Shown here piece after piece: positions 3,561 to 45,186 of a stretch of 45,186 nt of DNA (its first letter is position 1; every line of letters begins with the position of its first letter). The stretch is from assembly GCA_030017895.1 (NCBI GenBank), contig JASEGV010000018.1:1-45186 (forward strand), read 5' to 3'. A program made the translations under genes and the position numbers. The notes under the pieces are model-generated. The model was not told where the DNA came from and did no database searches. It was given only the letters and a program-made list of their open reading frames with translations. The DNA comes from Bacteroidota bacterium. Lineage in GTDB: Bacteria > Bacteroidota > Ignavibacteria > UBA10030 > BY39.

Positions 3561-4547
3561 TCAGTGGTCAATATAATTTTTGGATTTCTCAATAACTTCT
3601 TTAACCATATCGTTAAGCTTCACACCAAACAATCTCGCTCCAGCCGCATTCTTGTGTCCACCGCCCCCGAATTCTTTGGCTAATTCGTTTACGGGAATAT
3701 CTCCCTTTGAGCGGAAACTGATTTTTATACCATCATCCAACTCGTTAAATAATAAACCAATTTGTACTCCTTCGATGCTCATCGGATAGTTTGTAAAATT
3801 ATCTGTTTCAACTTCGGTTGTTCCGGTTGCATCAAACATTTTTTGTGTGCATACGATGTAAGCAAGTTTGCCGTCGTATTCAGTTTTAGCGGTGTCGAGA
3901 ACTTCACCTAATAATCGCATCCTCCCGAGTGTCCAACTTTCGTAAACTTTCGAATATACTTCAGTCGGGTCAACGCCGAAATGTAAAAGATGTGCTATGA
4001 TTTGGTGGGTTTCGATATCTGTTCTCGGAAAGCGAAACGAACCGGTGTCAGTCATAATCGCTGTGTATAACGGATGGGCGATTTCGTAATCTATTATGTC
4101 GCTATCCATCGAAAGTAAAAATTTGTATAGAATTTCAGCGGTGGAAGTGGCTTCTGCATCTATCAGATAATAATCCGCAAAATCGCCGGCTTCAAGATGG
4201 TGGTCGATTATAACTTTGATTGCTTTGCTTTGCAGAACATATTGTTCCAGACTTCGAAGTCGGTCGGATTGATTAGTATCAACTACGAATATTACATCTG
4301 TATTGAGTATGATATCTTTGTGTAGATTGGAATTAAATTTTAGAATTTCATTTTTTCTATCTAAGAATTCATAAAATTTTGGAGTTTCATTATGATTAAG
4401 TATCGTGGCTGATTTACCGATCTTTCGGAGGAAGTGAGCGAGAGCGAGTTCGCAGCCGAGACTATCGCCATCGGGATTTACGTGTGAAGTGATTACGAAG
4501 TGATGATACAGCTTGATTATATCTGCTATTTTTTGAATCTCGTGCAT
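3561..4547 (-). CDS. nrnA: DHH/DHHA1 phosphoesterase, NrnA-like nanoRNase/pAp phosphatase
   Basis: Of 328 residues, the DHH domain carries NPDGDSLG (Asp26, Asp28), VVDTNQSDR, DHH at 115-117 and TDTGSF (Asp167), all manganese ligands in this family. The DHHA1 domain ends with GGGGHKNAAGA at about 294-304, which binds the substrate phosphate. By family knowledge it degrades 2-5 nt RNAs and dephosphorylates 3'-phosphoadenosine 5'-phosphate in the cytosol; which activity dominates cannot be told from sequence. It sits between korB (25 bp upstream) and pepA on the same strand. Confidence 0.9.
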   Translation of the reverse strand: MHEIQKIADIIKLYHHFVITSHVNPDGDSLGCELALAHFLRKIGKSATILNHNETPKFYEFLDRKNEILKFNSNLHKDIILNTDVIFVVDTNQSDRLRSLEQYVLQSKAIKVIIDHHLEAGDFADYYLIDAEATSTAEILYKFLLSMDSDIIDYEIAHPLYTAIMTDTGSFRFPRTDIETHQIIAHLLHFGVDPTEVYSKVYESWTLGRMRLLGEVLDTAKTEYDGKLAYIVCTQKMFDATGTTEVETDNFTNYPMSIEGVQIGLLFNELDDGIKISFRSKGDIPVNELAKEFGGGGHKNAAGARLFGVKLNDMVKEVIEKSKNYIDH

Positions 4548-4572
4548 AAAAGTTGGATTAGTATTTTATAGA

Positions 4573-5586
4573 TTACTTAACTTCCCAGGTTTCGCCGCGG
4601 TTGAAAAGTTTTTCCAAATCACCGATACCTTTTTTTGTTGTAATATCATCAATCTGATTTTGCATCAATTGTTCATAAGTCGATTTTTCAACTGCATATA
4701 CAACTCCGACCGGTCGTGGTAAATTCTGTATCCCCGACATCCCGGCAAGTATGAATGCTAACATCGGATCTTTTTCGTCGTGAAGAATCAAATCACTGGT
4801 GGTATATTTACCATCTATAAGGGATACGACTTCAGGTGTAAAACCATTTAAGCGGATTCCTTTATCTTTATTCTTTCCGAAAATTAGTGGCTTCCCGTTT
4901 TCGAGAACAACAACATTATCATCTTTTGAATCTTTTTCAGTCCACAACTCAAAAGCACCGTCGTTGAACACATTACAGTTCTGATAAATCTCAACGAAAG
5001 CCGTTCCGTTATGTGCAGCGGCTCGCTTGATTACGGTTTGCATGTGTTTGGGATCGCGATCGAGAGTACGTGAGACAAAGGTTGCCTGAGCACCCAGTGC
5101 CAACGATAACGGATTAAACGGGTGGTCGATATTTCCAAATGGAGTCGATTTTGTAACTTGCCCTTGCAGCGAGGTAGGTGAGAATTGCCCTTTCGTTAAT
5201 CCATAAATTTGATTGTTGAAGAGAAGAATTTTTAAACCGGTATTCCTACGGCAAGCATGTATGAAATGATTCCCGCCGATGCTCATACCATCGCCGTCGC
5301 CGGTTGCTACCCAAACCGATAAATCGGGATGTGCTATTTTTAATCCCGATGCAATCGCAGCAGCTCTGCCGTGTATTCCGTGAAATCCGTAGGTGATCAT
5401 ATAGTAGGGAAAACGACTCGAGCATCCGATACCAGAAACAAAAACAGTTTTCTCTTTAGGAATTCCTAAATCAGGAAATACCCGCTGCGTTTGCGCCAGA
5501 ATCGAATAATCGCCGCAGCCCGGGCACCATCGAACATCCTGATCCGATTGAAAATCTTTTGTTGTATATATTGGTATTGTATTCAT
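4573..5586 (-). CDS. korB: 2-oxoacid:ferredoxin oxidoreductase, beta subunit
   Basis: The 337-residue thiamine-diphosphate subunit. Iron-sulfur cysteines appear as CPGCGDY (Cys21, Cys24), GIGCSSR (Cys55) and a later QNC; the ThDP/Mg motif is GDGDGMSIGGNH starting at about 96 with NN near 124 (NNQIYGLTKGQFSPTS). Together with KorA it decarboxylates a 2-oxoacid, probably 2-oxoglutarate, to the acyl-CoA while reducing ferredoxin; the reaction is reversible and serves the reductive TCA cycle in some Chlorobi relatives. Its ATG lies 1 bp after the korA stop, with an AGAGG motif within the end of korA. Substrate (2-oxoglutarate versus pyruvate or branched-chain acids) is inferred from subunit architecture, not proven. 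Confidence 0.92.
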   Translation of the reverse strand: MNTIPIYTTKDFQSDQDVRWCPGCGDYSILAQTQRVFPDLGIPKEKTVFVSGIGCSSRFPYYMITYGFHGIHGRAAAIASGLKIAHPDLSVWVATGDGDGMSIGGNHFIHACRRNTGLKILLFNNQIYGLTKGQFSPTSLQGQVTKSTPFGNIDHPFNPLSLALGAQATFVSRTLDRDPKHMQTVIKRAAAHNGTAFVEIYQNCNVFNDGAFELWTEKDSKDDNVVVLENGKPLIFGKNKDKGIRLNGFTPEVVSLIDGKYTTSDLILHDEKDPMLAFILAGMSGIQNLPRPVGVVYAVEKSTYEQLMQNQIDDITTKKGIGDLEKLFNRGETWEVK

Positions 5587-5587
5587 A

Positions 5588-7423
5588 TTATCCTCTTTTA
5601 ATCATTTCATCAATTTTATTTTCAATCTCGACAGCACTGAATGGTAAGCCGCGTACTAAATTAAAACCGACAGCATCCACTAAATATTTATCGCGTAGAA
5701 TTTTTATCAACTGACCGAGATTAATTTCAGGGACAAGTATTTGTTTGAAGTTTTTCAAAATCTCCCCGATGTTTTTTTGCAAAGGATTTATATATTTCAA
5801 ATGCAGGTGCGAAACTGATAATCCTTCGTTACGTTTGGTTTCTACTGCATTGTGAACAGCACCGTAAGTACTGCCCCAACTTACAACTAATAAGTCGCCG
5901 GATTCATCGCCCACAAGTTTAGCGGGTGGGATATCGTTTGTAATGTTGTTAATTTTTTCTGCACGAGTTGTTATCATCAAATGATGATTGTCGGGGTCAT
6001 AACTAATATTACCGGTGATGTTTTCTTTCTCAAGTCCGCCGATACGATGTTCGAGTCCGGGTGTGCCTGGAATCGCCCACATCCGCGCTAATGTTTGAGG
6101 ATCGCGTTTGTAAGGTGCGAATCCTTCAAGGTTTGTTACAAAGGTGGGAGATAGATCGGGAAGTTCAGAAATTCTTGGAATCAACCATGGCTCGGCACCG
6201 TTTGCGATATAACCATCCGTGAGAACAATTACAGGAGTCATATACTTTAATGCGATTCGTGCAGCCTCGAAGGTTGTGTCGAAACAATCGGTCGGTGAAC
6301 AGGCAGCGAATACAGGAATGGGTGCTTCACCGTTTCTACCGTAAACTGCTTGGAGTAGGTCGGCTTGTTCGGTTTTGGTTGGAAGTCCGGTACTCGGCCC
6401 GCCTCGCTGCACATCAATAATTATTAAAGGCAACTCTAACATCACAGCTAAACCCATTGCTTCAGTTTTAAGAGCCAAACCAGGTCCACTGGTATTTGTA
6501 GCACCGAGCGCCCCACCGTATGAAGCGCCGATAGCGCTTGTTATTCCGGCAATTTCGTCTTCAGCTTGAAAAGTTTTAACACCGTAATTTTTGTACTTTG
6601 ATAATTCTTGTAATATCTCACTTGCGGGTGTAATTGGATATGAGCCGAGAAATAATTCGAGGTTTGCGCGTTTAGCCGCTGCCATCAAACCCCAGGCAGT
6701 AGCCTCGTTGCCTGTTATACTCCGGTAACGACCCGGAGGGAGTTGTGCAGGTGCAACTTCAAAACGGACTGTAAATATTTCTGTCGTCTCGCCGTAAGCG
6801 TGCCCGGCTTTGAGAACGCGAGTATTAGCCTCGATGATATCTTCTTTGCCTGCAAATTTTTCTTTTATCCATTTCAAAGTTGGTTCCATTGGACGATTGT
6901 ACATCCAATATGTAAGCCCAAGAGCGAAAAAGTTTTTCGTCCGGTCCACAATTTTGGGCGATAAGTTCAAATCCTTGAGTGCATTTTGAGTTAGCTTTGA
7001 AATCTCAACGGAATAAACTTGATACCTACCTAATGAATCGTTTTGGAGTGGATTTGATTCGTAAGCGGCAAGACGTAAATTTTTTTCGTTAAAATTATCG
7101 GCGTTAGCAATAATGCTGCCCCCTTCTCGAAGTTTTTTCAGATAAACTTTTAGAGCTGCAGGATTCATAACTACTAAGCAATCCGATTGGTCGCCGGGAG
7201 TTCTGATTTCGGTAGCCCCGAAATTAATTTGGAAGCTGCTAACACCGGCAAGCGAGCCGGCGGGGGCACGGATTTCGGCGGGATAATCGGGCATTGTAGC
7301 TAAATCGTTCCCGACAAAAGCTGTTGCTGTTGTAAATTGTCCGCCCGTTAGCTGCATACCATCTCCCGAATCGCCGGCAAAGCGTATTGTTACTTCATCT
7401 ATGTTTTTTGTTATTTTTGCCAT
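5588..7423 (-). CDS. korA: 2-oxoacid:ferredoxin oxidoreductase, fused gamma-alpha subunit
   Basis: 611 residues in two parts. Residues 10-190 are the gamma domain (FAGDSGDGMQLTGGQF at 15-30, then EIRAPAGS). From about 235 comes the alpha subunit (GNEATAWG, SYPITPASEI at 261-270, TSGPG, LPTKTEQADL). The gamma-alpha fusion is the common arrangement in KorAB of aerobic and Bacteroidota-type bacteria and works with KorB without a separate ferredoxin-like delta subunit; none is encoded here. It heads the operon korA-korB-nrnA-pepA-crp', with a promoter-like pair at 7452-7480. Confidence 0.93.
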   Translation of the reverse strand: MAKITKNIDEVTIRFAGDSGDGMQLTGGQFTTATAFVGNDLATMPDYPAEIRAPAGSLAGVSSFQINFGATEIRTPGDQSDCLVVMNPAALKVYLKKLREGGSIIANADNFNEKNLRLAAYESNPLQNDSLGRYQVYSVEISKLTQNALKDLNLSPKIVDRTKNFFALGLTYWMYNRPMEPTLKWIKEKFAGKEDIIEANTRVLKAGHAYGETTEIFTVRFEVAPAQLPPGRYRSITGNEATAWGLMAAAKRANLELFLGSYPITPASEILQELSKYKNYGVKTFQAEDEIAGITSAIGASYGGALGATNTSGPGLALKTEAMGLAVMLELPLIIIDVQRGGPSTGLPTKTEQADLLQAVYGRNGEAPIPVFAACSPTDCFDTTFEAARIALKYMTPVIVLTDGYIANGAEPWLIPRISELPDLSPTFVTNLEGFAPYKRDPQTLARMWAIPGTPGLEHRIGGLEKENITGNISYDPDNHHLMITTRAEKINNITNDIPPAKLVGDESGDLLVVSWGSTYGAVHNAVETKRNEGLSVSHLHLKYINPLQKNIGEILKNFKQILVPEINLGQLIKILRDKYLVDAVGFNLVRGLPFSAVEIENKIDEMIKRG

Positions 7424-40701: not shown

Positions 40702-40731
40702 TTGAATGTTGATTTTATTTTGTTATATTTG
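40702..40731 (+). promoter_or_regulatory. Bacteroidota-type promoter of the restriction/KAP locus
   Basis: TTG (40702-40704), then 19 bp, then TATATTTG (40724-40731), matching the Bacteroidota -33/-7 pattern (TTTG, about 19 bp, TAnnTTTG). TATATT could also serve as a sigma70 -10. The GTG start of the HsdR remnant is 34 bp further on. No stem-loop is seen in 40680-40764. Confidence 0.45.
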
Positions 40732-40764: not shown

Positions 40765-41166
40765 GTGTCCTACAGAATTAGTGAACAAAAAACTCGTTAC
40801 AGCTTAATCGATCCCCAGCTTAAAAAAGCCGGATGCCTGTCCGCCGAAGTGTTATTCACGATGGTGGAGAATCTTTCTGACCGAACACAGGTGAGTTTTG
40901 AAATCTCTGTGACAGGATATGACACCACGTATGAGACTGTTGCATGCAAAGCGTTCGATGAGTTTATACTTGAGCATAACTATGACGCCGACCAATCCAG
41001 ATTTTTACGTGCTGTGCAGACTGTTTTCCTACAGCGAAGAAAATTAGAGCTTGCCGATTTGTATGAGGAACCATTTACTAATTTTGGCGTGAATGCAATT
41101 GAAAAACTATTTGGGGAGAGCGAGATTGCAGATTTACTTGAATTGACTAAGGGGTTTATGATATAA
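40765..41166 (+). pseudogene. HsdR (type I restriction R subunit) collapsed to N- and C-terminal ends
   Basis: 133 residues from GTG 40765. Residues 1-24 (SYRISEQKTRYSLIDPQLKK) are the HsdR N-terminal start (SExxTRxxLIDPxLxxAGW). Residues from about 65 (AFDEFILEHNYDADQSRFLR, RRKLELADLYEEPFTNFG, LFGESEIADLL) are the extreme C-terminal helical domain. The nuclease and the DEAD helicase motor, about 700 or more residues in normal HsdR, are missing, yet the frame is intact. It cannot cleave or translocate DNA. A retained adaptor role (MTase docking) is conceivable but unproven. It precedes the KAP gene by 20 bp. Confidence 0.8.
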
Positions 41167-41186
41167 ACAAAAGAAAGAATATTTAT

Positions 41187-44100
41187 ATGCAGAAATTGAA
41201 AATTATAACAGATGATCCATCGTTTACCAGTGGTATTTATAAAAAAGAAGAAGATGCTTTTAACCATGAGGCTTTCGCACAGACAGTTTTCAGGGTAGTA
41301 CAGGATAACGACCCACCTCTCACTGTAGGCTTATTTGGTGGTTGGGGTGTTGGTAAAACATCGATAGTAAATTTACTAAAATCAAAGTGCAAGGGTAATG
41401 GCCATAGCTTCATATATTTCAATGCTTGGCAATACTCTGGAGATTCATTTCGCAGACAGTTTCTTCTTACTGTTGCTGGTTCAGAAGATATCATTACAGA
41501 AGAATCTGAAAGACAAACTGCCGGCGAAAGGTTACAAAAATTGAGCTACAAAGATATTAAGGCTAAAAAGAAAGAAACCTTTCACTGGTCAAAAGCTGGA
41601 TTCAAAAATCTAGGGATCTTCCTGTTGACAGTAGCGATTGGCATATTGTTTATTATTTGGGGTGGTTGGACAACGCATATTGCTTCACTTGGTGCAGGAA
41701 TCTTCATATTAGTAGCCAGCATCATTGCAATAATTTACCAACGCCTTGAACAAATCATTCGCGTTGATGTAGAAACTATTGTTGATCCACAGTTAATCTT
41801 TCCAGAACAGTTCACTGAAGAATTTCATGGAATGATTACTAAGGCAATGAAGAAAAATGGTAGCAAGAAAATCATAATTGTTATTGATGATCTCGATCGA
41901 TGCGATATCGACACAATAAAAGATGTTTTAGTATCATTGAAAAATTTCCTTGGCAATAACCAGTGCTTTTTTATCATTCCAATGGATGATTCTTCTGTGG
42001 TTCAGATGTTCAAGGGCAAGAATACTAATTTTGGTTATGAGCAGCTTAGAAAGTATTTCACCGTTTCGCTGCGTATTCCTGCCTTTCATCAAGAGGACTT
42101 GCTTCATTTTGCACGGGAAGTGTCCGCAAAATACGAGATCCCCACGAGCATTGTATATATTGCAGCTGTAGGTTATTGCCGTGATGCAAGGAAGATCAAA
42201 CATTTCCTGAATATGTTTCAGCTCAAATATGCTCTCGCAGAGGAACGTGCAAAAGCTGGATACTTAGGTGATTTAAGTCTTGAAGGTGTTATCGACCAAT
42301 TAGCGAAACTTGTAGTTTTGGAATATCAATTCCCAGAATTCTTCCAGTTCATTTCGTTAAATCCTGAAACTATTGATACATTCGATCAGGCCGCGAGAGA
42401 CTTAGAGCCAGTTGAGCTTGCGAAAATGACGTGGAAAGAATTCGGTGAAGGTTACACGGGAATTGATGATCTCTGGCGCAACCAACCAGGGCTTCGCCAG
42501 TTTCTCCGTGCTACAGACAACGTTCAGCTGAACAATTTTGAGTTATTATCAAAACTCAAAACATCAAATCAAGAATTTACGCTTGGTGAATTTGGTATTC
42601 GGTTGCGTAAATGGATTGAACAAGGAATCGATTTTGAGTATGACATACATTTAACTGCTGAGTACCTTAGCTCTAATGGTAGATCAATAGTTGACGCACT
42701 TTCCACATGGTTAAATCCTGATGTGCCACCTGTGGCCAAGCGTGCTTATATAAGTGCGAAACGTATACTCGGTATGAAGATGCTTCAAAAGGAAATTCAA
42801 GCTGATCTTGCTAGAAGTACTATATCCATCGTTTTACACCCGAAAATTGCGATGACTATATCTGTACAAGATGCAGTTATCTTACTAGACAATCTTGATT
42901 TAACCGGACAGTTTCAACAAAGTACTTTCGTTAAGAAGATGATTCAGGAAATTTTTGTCATAGATAGATATGAACCAGAGTATTGGCGACTGATAGGTCA
43001 TAAGGCAATTAAGAAAATACTTAGTATGCATAGGGAAGCTGTACAAAACATAGACCTTGTTGTACAGAAGTGGTTATCAACCTTGAAGACTGTACCAGAA
43101 AAGGAATTATTTGTCTACGGTATAAGTCAAGTTCAGTTGTCAAAGGATGAGAGAACAGGATTGGGATTGATCTTCCCTTCAAATGATTTACTTACTTCTC
43201 TTGCAGCATCAATTTCCACAGAAAGTGTTGAGTTGAACAAAGCGATCTTTGCACTGTTAACTGACGAGAAGAATCCAGAAAGTTTTTCAGAAAAACAAAT
43301 AGGTTTGGGCAAAAAGCTCTCTGTGGTATTTAGTGAGAGCATAGTAGATGATAAGATGTCTTCGACCTTACTTTTCACTTGTGAGGCAATACGTGAAATG
43401 CCTGATTGGCTTGACGCTGAAAGTGCAAATACTGTCAGTTCATTAATTATTAATCAATATAAAAAATACACTGCAAACAGTGAGCTTGAACAAGCACTAT
43501 TAGAAACTTTGCTTCTTTGCTATCCTTCACTTAAGGATGTTGCTCAGACGAAGAAAGTCAAAGACAGTTACGATTCCTTTGCCGATCTATTGCCACCCGA
43601 TAGATTTGAAACCCATATCGAAAGAATATTACTTGGACCGTTCGACGAGACAAGTATTTTGGAGGTGCTAATACCTGAAAGTTTGAATCGAAGAATATCG
43701 TCAATTGAAAGGGAAATTGAATCTCCCGATGACACAATTATAGGCAACGCTAGATTATGCCGCAAGTACAAACAATATATTGGCGAAGAAAAGTATAACG
43801 AACTGCTCTCAAAACTCTTCAATCTAAAAGATGCTAATGCGATAGAGGGTTGGAGTCCATTCATGGTAGAGGAAATTACACAATCAAACGATGAGCGGGT
43901 AAATTCGTTACTTGACAGTACTGTGTCATCTTTAAAGAATTCGTCTCTGCCAAAAGCAGCACGCGAGCATTATGGCAAACTTCTGATAAAAATTCTTTAT
44001 GATGAAATAACAGTGAGCAGAGGTAAATCCTATTATGAAATGCTGTTCGTATTATTAGGGGATGACGACCTTGTAAATGTAGGTTTTGTTGTGGATAGCT

Positions 44101-44552
44101 TCGATTCACTTCATAGCAGATTCGGGGATGAAGTACCTGAACAAAACATTGATGATGAGGTTAGAAAACTTTTAGCAAAACAGAATCTTGGTTCATATTC
44201 AGGCACAGTAAACATTTATCTTGGCTATCAATCATCAATTACACTAGATTCGTGTCATGAGATAGTTAGTAAAACCATTGCTGAGCTTCCAAATGATTTA
44301 CTTAATGTAGACCATAGGTATCAACTCCTTCATCTGTTAGGAGGGATAAGTAACGCTGGAGAACGTGCGAGAGATATTTCAGAGGTGTTGTTTAAGTATA
44401 AGGAAACCGGAAGCGTTAATGAACTCAAGACTAAGGCATATGAGATATATGAGCACCTTACTCGTAACGACATAGTTGCTGTGTATCTACCTCCAGCCAA
44501 GTCCGAACCTGCAGAATCAACAGCAATCAAAGAAGAGAAAAATGTTAACTGA
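41187..44552 (+). CDS. KAP-family P-loop NTPase, membrane-anchored, putative defence protein
   Basis: 1121 residues. The KAP NTPase domain has Walker A GGWGVGKTS (51-59) and Walker B IIIVIDDLDRC (229-239), with two membrane helices (about 141-159 and 165-184) inserted between them, the defining KAP architecture. PAFHQEDLLHFAREVSAKY and CRDARKIKHFLNMF follow as the lid. The remaining roughly 780 residues are mostly helical, without a motif I recognise; they may be a sensor or scaffold. F-plasmid PifA, a KAP protein, blocks phage T7. It lies between hsdR and hsdM remnants; its stop overlaps the hsdM ATG by 11 bp. The frame is intact. Confidence 0.88.
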   Translation: MQKLKIITDDPSFTSGIYKKEEDAFNHEAFAQTVFRVVQDNDPPLTVGLFGGWGVGKTSIVNLLKSKCKGNGHSFIYFNAWQYSGDSFRRQFLLTVAGSEDIITEESERQTAGERLQKLSYKDIKAKKKETFHWSKAGFKNLGIFLLTVAIGILFIIWGGWTTHIASLGAGIFILVASIIAIIYQRLEQIIRVDVETIVDPQLIFPEQFTEEFHGMITKAMKKNGSKKIIIVIDDLDRCDIDTIKDVLVSLKNFLGNNQCFFIIPMDDSSVVQMFKGKNTNFGYEQLRKYFTVSLRIPAFHQEDLLHFAREVSAKYEIPTSIVYIAAVGYCRDARKIKHFLNMFQLKYALAEERAKAGYLGDLSLEGVIDQLAKLVVLEYQFPEFFQFISLNPETIDTFDQAARDLEPVELAKMTWKEFGEGYTGIDDLWRNQPGLRQFLRATDNVQLNNFELLSKLKTSNQEFTLGEFGIRLRKWIEQGIDFEYDIHLTAEYLSSNGRSIVDALSTWLNPDVPPVAKRAYISAKRILGMKMLQKEIQADLARSTISIVLHPKIAMTISVQDAVILLDNLDLTGQFQQSTFVKKMIQEIFVIDRYEPEYWRLIGHKAIKKILSMHREAVQNIDLVVQKWLSTLKTVPEKELFVYGISQVQLSKDERTGLGLIFPSNDLLTSLAASISTESVELNKAIFALLTDEKNPESFSEKQIGLGKKLSVVFSESIVDDKMSSTLLFTCEAIREMPDWLDAESANTVSSLIINQYKKYTANSELEQALLETLLLCYPSLKDVAQTKKVKDSYDSFADLLPPDRFETHIERILLGPFDETSILEVLIPESLNRRISSIEREIESPDDTIIGNARLCRKYKQYIGEEKYNELLSKLFNLKDANAIEGWSPFMVEEITQSNDERVNSLLDSTVSSLKNSSLPKAAREHYGKLLIKILYDEITVSRGKSYYEMLFVLLGDDDLVNVGFVVDSFDSLHSRFGDEVPEQNIDDEVRKLLAKQNLGSYSGTVNIYLGYQSSITLDSCHEIVSKTIAELPNDLLNVDHRYQLLHLLGGISNAGERARDISEVLFKYKETGSVNELKTKAYEIYEHLTRNDIVAVYLPPAKSEPAESTAIKEEKNVN

Positions 44553-45186
44553 TCCACAACTCAAATCTAAAGTCGACGCTCTCTGGGACAAATTCTGGTC
44601 CGGGGGCAAATTGTGTGCGGGGTTGTCGACCCCTCCCGCCACAATGCGGCGGGATTTCGCAAAAAGCGCTCAACTATCGTCCCACTTCGCATGGGGGATG
44701 GTTGTCCGCACCTGTCCAAGCTCTAACTTTTCCCCTTGTGAAGTGGAACATCCCGTTGAAAGCGGGAGTGGAAAACACAAAAGGGGTCGAAGTGATTTTA
44801 TGACTGAGATATTTAATAAAAAAGAGATGAAGGAGAGAAGACAATCTCTTCGTAATCAAGCTACTTTAACTGAAGTACGTTTATGGGATCGCTTACGGAA
44901 AAAGCAAATTTTAGGTGTTCGCTTTCGAAGGCAATTCAGCATAGGAAACTATATCGTGGATTTCTATTCACCTCAGATTAAACTTGCTATCGAGATAAAC
45001 GGCAAAAGCCATGACACTGAAACAAAACGTGAATACGATTTAAATAGAGATGAAAATATCAAGCAACTTGGAATTAATATAATCAGATTTCGAAACCACG
45101 AAGTGCTGGACGAAATTGATAATGTTGTACGAAAAATTGAAGATGCCATAAAAACATTCCCCCTTAAAAAGGGGGAAACGAAGGGG
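44542..45186 (+). CDS. HsdM N-terminal stub read in frame into a DUF559 endonuclease-like domain (partial at window end)
   Basis: ATG 44542 starts MLTDPQLKSKVDALWDKFWS, the exact N-terminus of type I methyltransferase subunit HsdM. After GG (codons 21-22) the family sequence (ISNPL...) is lost, and about 60 codons of low-complexity, repeat-like sequence follow with no stop. At codon 87 (ATG 44800) a DUF559 PD-(D/E)xK-like domain begins: ATLTEVRLWDRLRKKQ, GVRFRRQFSIGNYIVDFYSP, LAIEINGKSH, IIRFRNHEVL. The frame is open to the window edge, so the 3' end is unknown. DUF559 may be translated from its own ATG at 44800. Confidence 0.75.
   Translation, partial: MLTDPQLKSKVDALWDKFWSGGKLCAGLSTPPATMRRDFAKSAQLSSHFAWGMVVRTCPSSNFSPCEVEHPVESGSGKHKRGRSDFMTEIFNKKEMKERRQSLRNQATLTEVRLWDRLRKKQILGVRFRRQFSIGNYIVDFYSPQIKLAIEINGKSHDTETKREYDLNRDENIKQLGINIIRFRNHEVLDEIDNVVRKIEDAIKTFPLKKGETKG
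44635..44653. repeat. Short GC-rich hairpin at the hsdM/DUF559 junction
   Basis: CCCGCC (44635-44640) and GGCGGG (44648-44653) form a 6-bp stem with a 7-nt loop, about 30 bp after HsdM similarity ends. It stands out in an AT-rich window and lies near the left edge of the inserted segment. Confidence 0.45.
44732..44786. repeat. Imperfect palindrome before the DUF559 start
   Basis: CCCCTTGTG (44732-44740) is answered by CACAAAAGGGG (44776-44786); an inner CCCG/CGGG pair sits at 44752-44766. It is a stem-rich segment just upstream of the DUF559 ATG at 44800, of the CCCCTT...AAGGGG type that also appears at 45157-45177. Confidence 0.4.
45157..45177. repeat. Perfect palindrome near the window end
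   Basis: TTCCCCCTT (45157-45165) and AAGGGGGAA (45169-45177) with a 3-nt loop. It lies within the reading frame at the C-terminal end of the DUF559 domain and shares its CCCCTT/AAGGGG arms with the palindrome upstream of the domain, as if both ends of a cassette carry the same kind of repeat. Confidence 0.5.

Follow-up and report, generated by a model that had tools for sequence, protein, structure and literature searches.

An intact KAP-family NTPase gene between the remains of hsdR and hsdM in a Bacteroidota type I restriction operon

Results

An open KAP gene lies between broken restriction genes

The window analysed here, 45,186 nt in length, is the whole of contig C18, one of the 176 contigs of a draft genome of 3.2 Mb. 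Its right-hand end carries part of a type I restriction operon on the plus strand. A predicted promoter of the Bacteroidota type (TTG-N19-TAnnTTTG; plus strand) lies at 40702-40731, upstream of the hsdR remnant; this pattern matches twice on the plus strand of the 45-kb window, and 40702-40731 is one of the two. The hsdR remnant (40765-41166, plus strand; 133 aa) had been described in a first-pass annotation of this DNA as a reduced hsdR, and a match to Pfam EcoEI_R_C (E=2.9e-10) bears this out. Comparison with the intact hsdR of relatives refined the picture, in that the remnant is not a mere tail: its residues 1-55 match residues 1-44 of the relatives' proteins (match figure 49-64%) and its residues 55-133 match residues 849-927 (63-85%). 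About 800 codons, comprising the nuclease and helicase core (approximately residues 45-848), have thus been deleted in frame. A search of the rest of the source genome, a draft assembly, turned up no close hsdR.

The next gene begins after a 20-bp gap and encodes a KAP-family P-loop NTPase (41187-44552, plus strand; Pfam PF07693, E=1.8e-25), the frame of which contains no stops over 1121 codons. The hsdM ATG, at 44542, overlaps the KAP gene by 11 bp. The intact KAP frame, the shared strand and the spacing are all as first reported, and KAP thus has the layout of an embedded defence gene, tightly spaced between hsd genes on the same strand. We infer that it is transcribed together with the hsdR remnant and hsdM.

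All that remains of hsdM on C18 is a 5' relic of 22 codons (44542-44607, plus strand), which ends at TCCGGGGG and is 85% identical to the start of the hsdM on contig C69. The hsdM stub of the first-pass annotation is thereby corrected: it breaks off at codon 22, and a different gene comes next. After a spacer (44608-44799, plus strand), part of which (44693-44792) resembles the spacer preceding the C69 hsdM (68% match to C69:14084-14158), comes a gene for a DUF559 protein (PD-(D/E)XK-like; Pfam DUF559, E=6.4e-31), which runs off the contig end (44800-45186, plus strand). No second DUF559 match was found in the source genome.

The operon continues on another contig with an intact hsdS

The final 55 bp of C18 are also found at the ends of two other contigs, C69 and C86. 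The heptosyltransferase gene that lies to the left of the KAP locus has a counterpart in a same-genus genome (88% identical), where it is followed by one other gene and then by the genes found downstream of hsdS on C69. Since this gene order places C69 next, C69 is the true right-hand neighbour of C18, and the same synteny led us to reject a join to C86. C86 (locus L031) bears a further type I locus, comprising hsdM (844 aa), hsdS, Fic and hsdR (1011 aa), which comes immediately after the broken head of an hsdM (94 aa).

The rightward extension proposed in the first pass leads, by synteny, to a second hsdM and to hsdS. On C69, hsdM starts anew and is then split into frames of 197 and 367 aa by a palindromic insert. 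Several such inserts interrupt this coding sequence (locus L032, 12402-14058); some preserve the frame, one shifts it, and they resemble in-gene palindromic elements of other bacteria. The hsdS gene is an open frame of 396 aa that matches Methylase_S in two stretches (E=9.6e-24). A functional type I enzyme would have an HsdR with nuclease and helicase core and an intact HsdM, and this operon has neither. Judged from the sequence, R is dead, M survives as the relic plus a full copy carrying a frameshift, and S is intact. The first-pass observation is thus confirmed in part.

Restriction genes are absent from the corresponding site in two same-family genomes, and KAP is absent from the same-genus genome. 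The type I operon was presumably gained by horizontal transfer.

Features of the KAP protein

The PF07693 match covers residues 29-305 and scores 90.3 bits, against a gathering cut-off of 20. A motif scan placed Walker A at residue 51 and Walker B (IIVIDD) at residue 230, and a hydropathy scan found two hydrophobic segments between them, at approximately 137-165 and 162-191. Membrane segments in this position, inside the NTPase domain, are the hallmark of the KAP family. Structure prediction, also suggested in the first pass, gave an all-helical C-terminal part in an AlphaFold model of low confidence (pLDDT 54.8), and the fold matches were to generic HEAT/ARM repeats (Z 10-12, large rmsd). This part is probably a helical solenoid of a HEAT/ARM-like kind, as far as the model can be trusted. 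The NTPase region of the model matched the RdrA ring (Z 11.1, rmsd 3.8, 149 aligned). No KAP relative was found by sequence in the PDB, and matches in PADLOC and NCBIfam were confined to the NTPase domain, below family level.

With KAP as a single-sequence query, neither genome contigs nor viral contigs yielded a relative; an alignment query returned three genome loci and distant viral loci. Of the full-length relatives, the best two, at 40% and 33% identity, are solitary, without restriction genes. The nearest N-terminus, 63% identical over 123 residues, is that of UBA9647, from the same order. Here, KAP lies 58 bp downstream of hsdS in an operon, hsdR-hsdM-rhuM-hsdS, whose hsdM belongs to a different group; the gene stops at the contig end, with 311 aa readable. 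The first-pass annotation had staked its proposal on KAP being associated with type I genes in other genomes as well, and UBA9647 is such a genome. More distant long KAPs adjoin type IIG genes in three genomes (L072, L111 and L074) or an MmeI-type gene. This range of settings, after hsdS, beside other restriction types or solitary, suggests that KAP is mobile and independent. The pairing of long KAP with type IIG in L072, L111 and L074, accompanied in the first two by a PLD-helicase, is possibly a separate recurrent system. Most of the shorter KAP matches (approximately 600-660 aa) were set aside as QatA, given their qatB-like and TatD-like neighbours.

The hsdR-hsdM gap holds unrelated genes in related loci

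We compared 20 regions around relatives of the source genome's hsdM. In the close group, in which hsdM pairs are 63-88% identical, nine loci have hsdR and hsdM on one contig, and in all nine the gap between them is filled by same-strand genes (1.0-6.9 kb). The median pairwise identity in this group is 69% for hsdR and 73% for hsdM, and the gap cargos are unrelated, save for one SIR2-kinase pair and one small-gene pair. The gap of locus L116 holds Vsr, Dcm, a MORC-like HATPase, Z1 and DUF4420, and that of locus L120 is filled by a 1057-aa PRTase-ATPase (3910-7083; ATPase_2 and PRTase-CE domains). SIR2-kinase fusions occupy the gap in two loci. The remaining five carry, one each, a nucleotidyltransferase-like protein with a DNA methylase, a split SIR2 protein, NA37 with RelA/SpoT, PIN, and a D12 methylase with a Ham1-AAA fusion. 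In close loci whose contig ends before hsdR, the genes upstream of hsdM include NACHT, another ATPase and a Zeta toxin. On contig C79 of the source genome itself (locus L033, 1-1678), a 416-aa AAA_15/AAA_21 ATPase immediately precedes a further broken hsdM head, and so forms a second remnant of a cargo.

Gap cargo was found in only 2/6 loci of a more distant hsdM group, compared with 9/9 in the close group (Fisher p 0.011). In a wider Bacteroidota sample, the gap holds one gene of approximately 470-600 aa in many loci and nothing in others, or else the order is M-S-R. Full occupancy is thus a property of the close hsdM subfamily in our sample and not of type I loci at large. Plasmid relatives of hsdM (at most 49% identity) have accessory genes at other positions.

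Among the loci compared, the order hsdR-KAP-hsdM was seen at the C18 locus only. The gap in the nine related loci always holds other genes, which argues that KAP is one interchangeable cargo and that there is no fixed hsdR-KAP-hsdM system.

Possible insertions at gene starts

The DUF559 gene of C18 lies behind the hsdM relic (44542-45186, continuing on C69), and locus L122 (5661-6843) likewise has DUF559 behind a 22-codon hsdM relic. In loci L184 (1267-1881) and L197 (1321-1881), DUF559 follows a relic of the first 118 bp or so of a 133-aa gene. In all four, a second copy of the gene start follows DUF559, and the relic terminates in TC(C/G)GG(A/C/G)GG (TCSGGVGG), a motif that occurs three times over both strands of the window. 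From these few cases, the placement of DUF559 looks like a homing-like, site-specific insertion in which the start of the gene is duplicated. L126 and L127 each have a RAYT-like gene, flanked by palindromes, between the cargo and hsdM; in both it follows an hsdM relic of 28 codons, broken at the same codon, and the upstream cargos of the two loci differ. The term RAYT-like reflects our reading of the sequence by eye, and the L126 gene had no match in Pfam.

Taken together, these observations would fit a picture of the hsdR-hsdM gap of these Bacteroidota type I operons as an exchange slot, in which unrelated defence genes are swapped within a conserved hsdR/hsdM frame, small genes of nuclease or transposase-like type (DUF559, RAYT-like) insert at a fixed site at the hsdM start, leaving a 5' relic with the start repeated behind it, and a cargo such as KAP can outlive the restriction enzyme. 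We put this forward tentatively, as possible rather than likely.

Discussion

It is established that type I operons can contain embedded defence genes. TgvAB is embedded in a type I locus and protects without its host operon, although less than the full operon does (PMC11411939). DarTG2 (PMC12255303) and RloF, one of several R-linked ORFs of type I loci (PMC4619093), lie between hsdS and hsdR, and PrrC, inside a type IC locus, guards EcoprrI (PMC12707154). The KAP gene of C18 resembles all of these in being an extra gene inside an hsd operon, insofar as its presumed role in defence is accepted. It differs from DarTG2 and RloF in position, being a KAP NTPase in the hsdR-hsdM gap. The MORC-like HATPase and Z1 of L116, with Dcm and Vsr, share that gap and are unrelated to KAP as proteins, which illustrates how interchangeable the cargos are. 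KAP as an embedded type I cargo was not found in the literature searched, a search that did not extend to the main preprint on embedded defences.

Among KAP proteins themselves, Tmn is a single-gene defence, a transmembrane NTPase of the KAP family with two transmembrane segments, the mechanism of which is unexplored (PMC11846954). The C18 protein is likewise a KAP NTPase with two membrane segments, compared here with Tmn by description only, but it sits inside a type I operon. Kinship with PifA, the phage exclusion protein of plasmid F, had been raised in the first-pass annotation. The N-terminal NTPase regions are indeed related (PADLOC, E=4.8e-12), but the best-scoring stretch is limited to some 100 residues (17-117), the C-terminal part of KAP has no match, and the protein exceeds the PifA profile of 720 positions by about 400 residues. 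With QatA it has the KAP NTPase domain in common (NCBIfam, E=3.5e-30). However, the score of 105.2 bits falls far below the equivalog cut-off of 600, and its neighbours are hsd genes and DUF559, with no qatB, qatC or qatD nearby. By analogy with Tmn and PifA, the C18 KAP is probably an anti-phage protein.

The explanation towards which we lean is that KAP is an accessory defence cargo, lodged between hsdR and hsdM in a type I operon that was acquired horizontally, and that it shares the operon's promoter, acts alone and has outlasted the restriction enzyme. Embedded in the operon, KAP would be expressed from the operon promoter. By analogy with Tmn and PifA, the membrane-anchored protein would most likely work on its own. 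Its helical C-terminal part would sense a phage component; NTP binding or hydrolysis would then change its assembly, and activation would lead to membrane damage or aborted infection. The restriction enzyme would have been lost later, through the in-frame deletion in hsdR and the frameshift in hsdM, with both hsdS and KAP remaining open. In this scheme the role in defence, the sensing, the action on the membrane, the autonomy and the retention by selection are all inferred. Autonomy has a precedent in TgvAB, although the weaker protection by TgvAB alone suggests that KAP may depend to some extent on its host operon.

KAP could instead be held inactive by the type I complex, or sense its inhibition, and trigger abortive infection when a phage blocks restriction. 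PrrC works in this way inside its type IC locus (PMC12707154), and the common operon and tight spacing would suit such a guard. However, KAP is open beside an hsdR without its catalytic core and an hsdM with a frameshift, which favours independent action, and relatives of KAP occur without restriction genes or beside unrelated restriction types; we consider a guard role unlikely. Far less probable still is the composite system envisaged in the first-pass annotation, in which KAP would be a working part of the restriction complex. Its place inside the operon, and the second KAP directly after hsdS in UBA9647, speak for it, but the hsdR-KAP-hsdM order did not recur, the gap holds unrelated genes in nine relatives, and the closest full-length relatives of KAP are solitary. 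The first-pass interpretation is thus supported in part: KAP does lie inside a type I operon, but a dedicated composite system is not supported.

The whole locus might also simply be decaying, with KAP not yet hit and without a current role. Two of the operon's genes, hsdR and hsdM, are indeed broken, palindromic inserts abound and KAP is missing from the same-genus genome; moreover, since no closely related KAP is long enough for an estimate of selection, its intactness may mean only that the decay of its neighbours is recent. Nevertheless, KAP has an open frame of 1121 codons and hsdS one of 396 aa, the promoter match survives and the deletion in hsdR preserves the reading frame, so that we regard decay of the whole as a rather improbable account, and prefer to see KAP as a cargo that has outlasted its enzyme.

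If so, C18 would be a natural case of a cargo outliving its host enzyme, one that bears on whether embedded defences act alone or as guards. The mechanisms of KAP NTPases such as Tmn and PifA are poorly understood, and long KAPs beside different restriction enzymes could help to separate their common from their specific features. More generally, the hsdR-hsdM gap of this close type I family, filled in every one of the nine loci and often with unstudied proteins, is a place to look for new defence genes.
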